Shown here one piece after another: positions 9,378 through 12,704 of a stretch of DNA of 64,000 bases. The first letter of the stretch is position 1. Each line of letters starts with the position of its first letter. The notes below the pieces were generated by a model. The model worked only from the letters and a program-made list of their open reading frames with translations. It ran no database searches and had not been told where the DNA came from. The position numbers were made by a program, and so were the translations under genes. The stretch comes from Alphaproteobacteria bacterium (GTDB lineage Bacteria; Pseudomonadota; Alphaproteobacteria; JAVJVX01), in assembly GCA_040220875.1 (NCBI GenBank), contig JAVJVX010000009.1, forward strand, positions 124,001 through 188,000, in the 5' to 3' direction.

Positions 9378-11345
9378 TCAGCGATTGGCAGCCCAACTGT
9401 TGCGGGCGAGCCGTTCGATTTCCACGATCTCCTCGGCGGGTACGCTGGCCGGGTCGCCCTCCTCCAGCAGGTCGTAGTGGTAGAGGTAGAGGCGCGAGGC
9501 GAACTGGGTGAAAAGCAGAGACGATTCGCCGAACATCTCGCCCTTGCTCGCAGTGGAGACCTGCACGCCGTCGCCCAGATCCTGGCCGCTATCGTTGTTC
9601 GGATTGTAGAAGTAGACGCGCATCTGCCCCTCCGGATCCGGCGCCACGCGGTAAATCGCGATCGCGTGCCAGCCAACGAAGCGTGCGGCGCTGTCCGTCA
9701 TGGCAAGGCCAGCCGGCTGCGGATGGATCAGGGGCTGGTCGCCGTTATTATGCGGGTGGTAGGCGGCGTAGAATTCGCGCAAGAAATCCTCGTAGGCCGA
9801 CAGCTTGCCGGTCGCCACATCGACCGCCAGCCGGCAGCCGCGGCCGACCCACCAGCCATGCAACTCGGGATTGACCCAGCGGTGCGGATCACCCGGCCGG
9901 TCCGCGCACAATCGGCCCATCTCCACATAGATCCGGTCAAGATGCGGTACCAGCACGCTCGACACCGGATCGACGTCGGCCGGCGGGCGGTTCGCCATCC
10001 CGGCACCCAGCGCGCTGGACGAGATCGCCTGGCCCTCGAAATGCATCACTACCTCGTTGTCGCGCGCCGCCCAGCGAATCAGCTGCATCAGATAGTCGGG
10101 CACAATATGTGACCACATCGCCGTGGCCCGGGCCGCTTGGCAGGTCGGGTTGTTGCCCTGGCCGATGCCGAGCGGCTGGCCCAGCACGCTAAGCACACCT
10201 GCCAGCAGGTGTACCCGGGCCGGTTGCCCCGTGCCGAAGCGTATGGCGATGGTCTGCTCCGCCTCGGCACAGAGCGGCAGGGCCATCTGGCGCCACAGCG
10301 CGGGCGCCAGCGCGGGAACGTGGATGATGCCGCGTTCCAGCAGCATGGCCAGCCCGTAGATCGCCTGGCAGGTTTCGATGTGAATTGCCTCGCGGATCAG
10401 CGAGCGGAACAGGGTCTGATAGAAGTTCAGCCCGTCGATCCCGGTGCTGCTCAGGCCCAGGGTCGTGGCCAGCAGCTCGGGATTGGTCTCGTTAACGTGG
10501 CGCAGGAACACGGCATGGTAGGCTGAGACGAGGCCTGTGTCGTGCATCGCCCGGGCGAAGGCACGGGCCTCCTGCTGCAACAGCTTGGCGTCCATTGCCG
10601 CCACCCGCTCGCGGTAGAGGTCCAAACCCGGGTCCTCCCGACTGGCGTTGGTCGGCCGGAACAGGGCGCTGATCAGCCGGTCCGCGCCGAGGCTGCTCGC
10701 CCCGTCGACACCTTCGCCCTGGCCTTCGACCAGCCAAGCGGCGATCTGGGTCACCATGTCCTTGACCTCGGTCACCACGATCGGCCGCTGCGCCAGGATG
10801 CGCCAGATCTCCTCGATCAGCTTGCCGAAGATCTCCGAGTAACCGACATGCTCGACAAGGAAGCGGAACACGTTGTGCACCACCGGGCCGAGGTTTCCCG
10901 GCCGCAGGCGGTCAGCCTCGTTCATCTGGTCAAACAACAGGTCGAGGTTGAGCCCGACCGCCTGCGAAAGAAAATGCTGGGCCTGCTCGGCCGACAGCGA
11001 ATCGTGCAGGTAAATGCCGCGCGCCACTGCCAGCATGCGAAGCTGGCTCAGGCATTCCAGGGTGGTGGCGTACTGATCGCCCTCGCGCAGGGTCTTTGCG
11101 GAGATCGGCGCCTGCAGAATTTCCGGCTGAGCGTAGTCGCTGCCCCAGAAAATGCCGGCCTGTTCGAGCTCCTGCACACGCTCGTAGACCACCGCCACGC
11201 CGTCAGGAGTAGCCAGTAGCCGGCGCGCGGCGTCGAGCAGGCGGGCCGCGCCGGTCCATTTCGCGAAGTTGCGAGTCTCGCCCAGCCGGCTCGTCGCATT
11301 ATCCAGCTTCTCGCCGAGCTGTCTCAGCCGTTCGCTATCGGTCAT
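9378..11345 (-). CDS. Large uncharacterised protein with predicted papain-like C-terminal domain
   Basis: A 655-residue protein from MTDSERLRQL (ATG at 11345; an upstream in-frame start would add 30 low-complexity residues). Residues 1-380 look helical and match no family I know. The C-terminal part has a likely papain-fold active site: GIGQGNNPTCQAA places Gln396 six residues before Cys402, the papain Gln19/Cys25 spacing; FVGWHAIAIYRV gives His560; VYFYNPNNDSGQ gives Asn581 or nearby Asn/Asp. The H-A-x-A and FxPN context recalls C58 (YopT-like) and C39 peptidases. No signal peptide is visible. It lies 126 bp downstream of an ATP-grasp gene on the same strand. The catalytic assignment is inferred from motif order and spacing only; it could equally be a transglutaminase-like or amide-transfer enzyme. 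Confidence 0.85.
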   Translation of the reverse strand: MTDSERLRQLGEKLDNATSRLGETRNFAKWTGAARLLDAARRLLATPDGVAVVYERVQELEQAGIFWGSDYAQPEILQAPISAKTLREGDQYATTLECLSQLRMLAVARGIYLHDSLSAEQAQHFLSQAVGLNLDLLFDQMNEADRLRPGNLGPVVHNVFRFLVEHVGYSEIFGKLIEEIWRILAQRPIVVTEVKDMVTQIAAWLVEGQGEGVDGASSLGADRLISALFRPTNASREDPGLDLYRERVAAMDAKLLQQEARAFARAMHDTGLVSAYHAVFLRHVNETNPELLATTLGLSSTGIDGLNFYQTLFRSLIREAIHIETCQAIYGLAMLLERGIIHVPALAPALWRQMALPLCAEAEQTIAIRFGTGQPARVHLLAGVLSVLGQPLGIGQGNNPTCQAARATAMWSHIVPDYLMQLIRWAARDNEVVMHFEGQAISSSALGAGMANRPPADVDPVSSVLVPHLDRIYVEMGRLCADRPGDPHRWVNPELHGWWVGRGCRLAVDVATGKLSAYEDFLREFYAAYHPHNNGDQPLIHPQPAGLAMTDSAARFVGWHAIAIYRVAPDPEGQMRVYFYNPNNDSGQDLGDGVQVSTASKGEMFGESSLLFTQFASRLYLYHYDLLEEGDPASVPAEEIVEIERLARNSWAANR

Positions 11346-11471: not shown

Positions 11472-12704
11472 TCAGACATAGAAATCCAGTTCTTCCTGAT
11501 GCTTCAGCAGGTCGCGCATCTTGTGCGGGTCGTCGCCATGGAAAAACACCAGCCCCCAATGCGTGCCGAAGGCGGATCGCTTGGTTACGATTTCCTCCAT
11601 GGGTTCGGTCAGTTCGTGATAATCGAAATAGGGGTGCTCCTCGGTTTCCTTTGGGATCTTCAATGCGCTGACGACGCGCCGCCGTGGATAAACACCGAAG
11701 GTGCCGGCGTGCCCGTTGGCGTCGACCACCTCGCGCGGGAAGAAGGCTTCGATCTCTTCCTCCGTCGTCTTCGGGTCAAAGCACAGAATCAGCGCCTGAT
11801 AGGCGTTGAAGCCATAGGCTCGCTCGATCAGCTCGAACGCCTTGAAGCCGGGCGGCCGGTAGGCGACCTCGCCGAAGTACATCTCGCCGTCACTGGTGAC
11901 GAAGAACTCCGGATGGATGAAGCCAAACTGGATGTCGAAGGTCTTCACCAGTCGCTCGACCTGCTGGGTGATGAGTTGGCGCCAGCTCTCCAGCTCGGGC
12001 GTCGCCGGCACGAACACCGAATAGCCCAGGGTGACGTATTCGGAAATGTTCAGGAACCGCACCTTACCGTTGAACACCCAGGCCTCGACCGCGAACTCCC
12101 ATCCGTCGAGATGGCTCTCCATCAGAATCGGGAACTCTTCGTCGGAGACGCTTTCGACGTCCTCCGGCGTGCGAATCACCCGGTGGCCGAGGCAGCCCGC
12201 CTTGTCGAACGCCTTGAGGTGGATCGGGTCGTTCAGGTCGCCGTCGAGCTTGAGCAGCGTCTGATTCACCCTTTTCAGGAAGCGCGTGATGTCCTCGCGA
12301 TCGTGGGCCTCCTCGAAAATTCCCACGCGCAGGCCGCCCAGCTGGGCACGGCGCTTCATCAGCGCCTTGTCTCGGAACAGCACAGCCTGCCCGTGCAGGC
12401 GCGGGCTGTCGAACAGAACGGCATTGATCGCCCCGGCCCATTCGACAGTCTCCTCGAACAGCGGGATCGCCACGTCGACGCCCTCGTTCTTGAGGCGCTC
12501 CGCAATCTCCATCGAACGCTCGTTCAGCCGGTCAAAATTCCAGTTGATGAACGGGATATTATGCTTGTTCGCATACTCCTCCGCCCAGTCCGGTGCGACG
12601 ACGACATAGCGCCTGTTGAAGCGGTCTGCGGCGTCGATCGCGCCCAGGCTCCAGCCAAGCAGCGCAACGTATCCTTTGGACGGGTCTTTGTCGGTCTGTT
12701 CCAT
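11472..12704 (-). CDS. ATP-grasp ligase
   Basis: A 410-residue enzyme starting MEQTDKDPSKGY at 12704, with GGAAGACGAG upstream; longer in-frame starts add an Arg-rich, improbable leader. The N-terminal Rossmann-like pre-grasp domain is YVALLGWSLGAIDAADRF. ATP-grasp features follow: a Lys-containing strand (HLKAFDKAGCLG), the ExxxxGxEFAVE strand (MESHLDGWEFAVEAWV), and the metal-binding HPEFF and GEVAYRPPG, the last in place of the usual E-x-N/R. This resembles the carnosine-synthase/D-Ala-ligase-like ATP-grasp group, which joins a carboxylate to an amine via an acyl phosphate. The substrate is unknown. The gene precedes the papain-like protein and probably shares its transcript. Confidence 0.9.
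   Translation of the reverse strand: MEQTDKDPSKGYVALLGWSLGAIDAADRFNRRYVVVAPDWAEEYANKHNIPFINWNFDRLNERSMEIAERLKNEGVDVAIPLFEETVEWAGAINAVLFDSPRLHGQAVLFRDKALMKRRAQLGGLRVGIFEEAHDREDITRFLKRVNQTLLKLDGDLNDPIHLKAFDKAGCLGHRVIRTPEDVESVSDEEFPILMESHLDGWEFAVEAWVFNGKVRFLNISEYVTLGYSVFVPATPELESWRQLITQQVERLVKTFDIQFGFIHPEFFVTSDGEMYFGEVAYRPPGFKAFELIERAYGFNAYQALILCFDPKTTEEEIEAFFPREVVDANGHAGTFGVYPRRRVVSALKIPKETEEHPYFDYHELTEPMEEIVTKRSAFGTHWGLVFFHGDDPHKMRDLLKHQEELDFYV

Follow-up and report, generated by a model that had tools for sequence, protein, structure and literature searches.

In the butirosin pathway, the ATP-grasp enzyme BtrJ works with BtrH. The latter contains a papain-like domain and is described as an acyltransferase (PMC10318531), and the predicted peptide-metabolite operons of Iyer and colleagues also join ATP-grasp enzymes with papain-like transacylases (PMC2922099). 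Here we describe a locus in an alphaproteobacterial contig, within a window (the whole stretch of DNA analysed) of 64,000 nucleotides, where a 655-residue protein with a candidate papain-type site is encoded just downstream of a predicted ATP-grasp ligase. Scattered members of the Proteobacteria and Actinobacteria carry the two genes almost always as a pair, which points to an undescribed pathway of two enzymes and not to an ordinary protease. The features discussed are the following.

9378..11345, minus strand: 655-residue protein, with an all-helical N-terminal region (residues 1 to ~370) and a predicted papain-like C-terminal domain (~370 to 655), delimited from homologues, models and fold matches
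9381..10250, minus strand: C-terminal domain, residues 366-655, modelled alone (pLDDT 82.3, pTM 0.82)
10158..10160, minus strand: Gln396 codon, candidate oxyanion-hole residue (invariant 98/98)
10140..10142, minus strand: Cys402 codon, candidate nucleophile and sole invariant cysteine (invariant 98/98; model)
9666..9668, minus strand: His560 codon, candidate catalytic histidine (invariant 98/98; model)
9603..9605, minus strand: Asn581 codon, candidate third triad residue (invariant 98/98; model)
11472..12704, minus strand: predicted ATP-grasp carboxylate-amine ligase, 126 bp upstream of the 655-residue gene and on the same strand

Translation of the window confirmed that the ORF at 9378-11345 (minus strand) encodes 655 residues, that GIGQGNNPTCQAA, GWHAIAIYRV and YFYNPNND are segments of the product, and that Gln396, Cys402, His560 and Asn581 stand where the initial annotation had placed them. 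The bare spacing of these residues is weak evidence, since the loose pattern Q-x5-C ... H ... N is present in 4 of the 51 predicted window proteins (8%); it is their conservation in homologues that makes the pattern more than chance. Homologues were gathered from whole genomes, and the best 80 of at least 591 matching stretches were kept from a contig scan. The first 16 homologues align over the full length with 51-63% identity to the window protein, and the four residues are identical in all 16 and, later, in all 98 distinct homologues, an alignment that had been set beforehand as the check on the site. These 98 sequences all agree at 100 of the 655 positions, 67 of which lie past residue 375, and C402 is their only invariant cysteine. 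The site carries the hallmarks of clan CA, namely a Cys, a His and a polar third residue in canonical order, together with a candidate oxyanion-hole Gln (Q396) six residues ahead of the Cys, all invariant in 98 of 98. Many of the 67 invariant residues in the C-terminal 280 are polar and lie outside the Q/C/H/N tetrad, and because of these we infer that the protein acts on one exact substrate rather than in general proteolysis; such conservation suggests a specific, non-protease role. A C-terminal profile run against 398 genomes of the phylum retrieved the same family and then noise, with no more distant relatives, so the family is sharply bounded in this sample, and no member was found in viral contigs. 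One copy, from Halomonas sp. PA16-9 (locus L141, 12001-14052), has last residues unlike all others, as if frameshifted.

The C-terminal domain was modelled with AlphaFold2 from 39 sequences (residue number equals model position plus 365). In papain-like folds the core helix has the Cys at its N-terminal end (PMC10318531), and Cys402 is likewise the first residue of a helix in our model (model positions 37-49). His560 lies within strand 556-569 and Asn581 just after strand 575-580, so that the His and Asn fall on successive strands as had been proposed; the loop preceding Cys402 has a pLDDT below 50. The full-length AlphaFold2 model (pLDDT 75.7) is all-helical to about residue 370-390 and poor near the active site, and its Foldseek output, dominated by helical repeats, was uninformative. 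When the C-terminal model was compared with the PDB (350,542 chains), 47 of the top 50 Foldseek matches were papain-like peptidases. The matches included the cores of calpain-3 and calpain-2 (best E 0.011), staphopains, C1 enzymes and a P. distasonis dipeptidyl peptidase, and the best match in a viral library is annotated as papain family. Scores within the top 50 were loose (best E 0.011, none below 0.001; probability 0.77-0.82; TM about 0.35; rmsd about 8 Å). For this model, then, the concordance of papain-like matches appears strong and the superposition loose. Were the C-terminal domain not papain-like, the motif would be coincidental and Cys402 would have another role; the E values, the TM-score, the lack of a profile match and the 8% frequency of the bare motif in window proteins all speak for this reading. 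We consider it improbable given the predominance of papain-like structures (47 of 50) from so large a library, and given that the four residues follow the papain pattern both in their order and in where they fall on the secondary structure.

Sequence searches of Pfam, NCBIfam, PHROGs, PADLOC and the PDB with the 655-residue protein gave no credible match, and no credible Pfam family match was found among 37 C-terminal members; a weak PqqD match (E 0.01) appeared in 2 of 16 full-length members. The initial annotation had held that the N-terminal ~380 residues match nothing, and the Pfam, NCBIfam, PHROG and PDB sequence searches bear this out. Its reading of a clan-CA-like Q/C/H/N site also stands, but the resemblance it saw to C58 effectors and C39 peptidases is not supported. 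Peptidase C58 (YopT-like) had no Pfam match in the 16 full-length or 37 C-terminal members, and neither did peptidase C39/C39_2 (PF13529), BtrH_N (PF14399) or peptidase C1 (PF00112). Profile-profile probabilities from hhalign were below 1% throughout (0.3% for C39_2, 0.1% for BtrH_N and 0.4% for C1, the last with a small set of three), in a comparison that is a weak test because the family profile has an Neff of only 1.9. The fold matches are instead to calpain (C2), staphopain (C47) and papain (C1). Since it follows from fold matches and site without a profile link, the assignment we favour is that the protein is best called papain-like by fold and site, of no named family (neither C58 nor C39). 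A papain-like fold that has lost catalysis, the domain then assisting the ligase as a scaffold or by binding substrate, would sit well with the weak fold scores and has a precedent in papain-like families with altered or lost active-site residues (PMC10318531). Typical inactive members differ from the present family, in which four catalytic-type residues are invariant in 98 of 98 homologues, and we regard loss of catalysis as very improbable.

A stronger clue to function than the site itself is the ATP-grasp partner, which was absent from the initial annotation. Its start (11472-12704) was placed by comparison with homologues, the ORF staying open further upstream. The product matches PF13535 with an E value of 1.2e-5 and 25.4 of 27 bits, slightly under the Pfam cut-off, and we identify it as an ATP-grasp ligase from this domain, a conserved metal-site region (HPE...GEvAyRPPG) and an alignment to 3vot. 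Its nearest solved relatives are the L-amino acid ligases 3vot (E 0.0017) and 4wd3 (E 0.058). None of the libraries consulted names a function for either gene. In 92 homologues the partner is 73-81% identical to the window copy and 171 of 410 residues are invariant; as this identity extends across phyla, the reaction must be tightly constrained.

The two genes are closely associated. Among the best 80 of at least 591 homologous stretches, the ATP-grasp gene is present beside the homologue in 78 of the 80 loci. Where both genes are complete it lies upstream in the same direction at 72 loci, with a median gap of 93.5 bp, and is divergent at 3. In one locus (L020) it is not adjacent and was found on another contig of the same genome (G455). 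In the 398-genome sample, the 11 genomes with an orthologue of one protein family are exactly those with an orthologue of the other; they span five families, and we claim no p-value because they are not independent. Other ATP-grasp matches in this sample are at most 31% identical. Across 71 loci, pairwise distances for one protein correlate with those for the other (Mantel r 0.82, 0 of 999 permutations), a result that could also come from shared species history alone.

Matching genome stretches, of which there are at least 591, place the 655-residue protein in Halomonas, Marinobacter, Alcanivorax, Nocardia, Amycolatopsis and other genera. The gene pair was found in 59 of 101 genomes of one family (that of genome G050, judged to be Halomonadaceae), and the gene for the 655-residue protein is sporadic in Actinobacteria, with only 2 of 246 sampled genomes carrying it. 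Such a patchy distribution would fit an accessory pathway subject to spread or loss. Across the homologous loci we found no third gene conserved with the pair, no conserved transporter and, across taxa, no conserved short ORF that might encode a precursor peptide beside it. Families of conserved short ORFs are found mainly in Halomonadaceae and Marinobacter and the largest overlaps the SRP RNA gene, so we regard these ORFs as shared neighbourhood DNA with no sign of a peptide precursor. In Halomonadaceae a few hundred bases separate the pair itself from the SRP RNA gene (L027 6382-6478; also L047, L035 and L071).

These neighbourhoods bear on whether the pair matures a ribosomal peptide. In some graspetide-like clusters an ATP-grasp enzyme is found together with a cysteine peptidase. 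By analogy the ATP-grasp protein would be a macrocyclase and the papain-like protein a leader peptidase, and the weak PqqD match in 2 of the 16 members could be read in the same way. With neither a precursor-like ORF nor a transporter conserved beside the pair, and a partner that resembles L-amino acid ligases, we hold this reading to be highly improbable.

Some Marinobacter genomes encode three to five paralogues of the 655-residue protein. A paralogue (L110 8025-13841; L112) lies beside genes for a metallo-beta-lactamase (PF12706), a GCS2-like ligase (PF04107) and an aspartoacylase-like enzyme. These were rejected as a third partner because they accompany some Marinobacter paralogues only; they hint at amide chemistry, only beside those paralogues. 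The window also encodes a metallo-beta-lactamase (PF12706; 7103-8401, minus strand) about 1 kb downstream of the 655-residue gene, a 45% identical relative of which is beside the paralogue in L110 and near the one in L112, and at no other loci of the pair. One Marinobacter paralogue has a fatty acid desaturase as its neighbour and, at a distance of about 3 kb, a second and different ATP-grasp protein (PF13535; L113 3286-4602). A protein of 636 residues (L110 1663-3573; also in L111 and L112), whose C-terminal part is a ketoacyl-ACP synthase III domain and whose N-terminal half has no assignment, is encoded close to the type-2 paralogues of each of the three Marinobacter loci.

The co-inheritance of a ligase and a papain-like enzyme suits a small pathway, one enzyme forming an amide that the other transfers or cleaves. 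Our confidence is evenly divided as to whether the 655-residue protein is a cytosolic papain-like cysteine enzyme, and no general protease, that acts in the same pathway as the ATP-grasp ligase of the gene directly upstream. A cytosolic location would agree with the lack, on inspection, of any apparent N-terminal signal sequence in either protein. The ligase would use ATP to turn a carboxylate into an acyl phosphate and couple the acyl group to an amine, so that the product is a small molecule with a peptide or amide linkage. In the papain-like domain, His560 and Asn581 would activate Cys402 for attack on this amide (or on an activated acyl donor), with Gln396 holding the oxyanion. The acyl group would then pass either to an amine or to water, the domain thereby finishing, trimming or recycling the ligase product. 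The helical N-terminal region may bind the substrate or the ligase.

The main rival to this proposal is reversible protein modification, in which a cellular protein would receive an amino acid or short tag through the ATP-grasp enzyme and lose it again through the papain-like one. Tubulin tyrosine ligase, which is an ATP-grasp enzyme, and the papain-like vasohibin form an analogous pair that write and erase. Co-inheritance of a ligase and a hydrolase fits such a pair; calpain-like folds act on proteins, and the helical N-terminal region could bind one. There is, however, no conserved third gene that encodes a target, and the conservation of polar residues suggests one exact small substrate, though a single protein target would give the same. 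We judge the modification of a protein unlikely. Returning to the two-enzyme pathway as a whole, it seems to us an even call that this two-gene, apparently cytosolic ligase/papain-like pair, which Alpha- and Gammaproteobacteria share with Actinobacteria, serves to make or recycle an amide-linked metabolite not yet described (or a protein tag), by means of a papain-like family whose helical domain is new. The bare two-gene layout and culturable hosts leave the pair open to direct test by deletion and metabolomics.

Comparison with known systems shows both shared and distinct features. The L-amino acid ligases 3vot (BL00235) and 4wd3 are the closest solved relatives of the partner and align with its metal-site region, a likeness that is marginal by E value (0.0017 and 0.058), the ligase function being predicted. 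The C1, C2 (calpain) and C47 (staphopain) peptidases share with the 655-residue protein the Q-C-H-N order, the Q six residues before the C, a Cys that opens a helix, and a His strand followed by an Asn strand, and they dominate its fold matches. Unlike these peptidases, to which it has no detectable sequence similarity and a low TM-score, the 655-residue protein has a helical N-terminal region of 380 residues, lacks an apparent signal sequence and is tied to a ligase gene. In the butirosin pair, BtrH_N (C39-like) and BtrJ, a papain-like enzyme and an ATP-grasp ligase also cooperate in amide chemistry, whereas the present protein has no BtrH_N Pfam match or profile similarity and no carrier protein or cluster genes adjacent to it. 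The operons of Iyer and colleagues (PMC2922099) similarly bring together genes for an ATP-grasp ligase and a papain-like transacylase; those operons hold many enzymes, in contrast to the bare two-gene unit described here.
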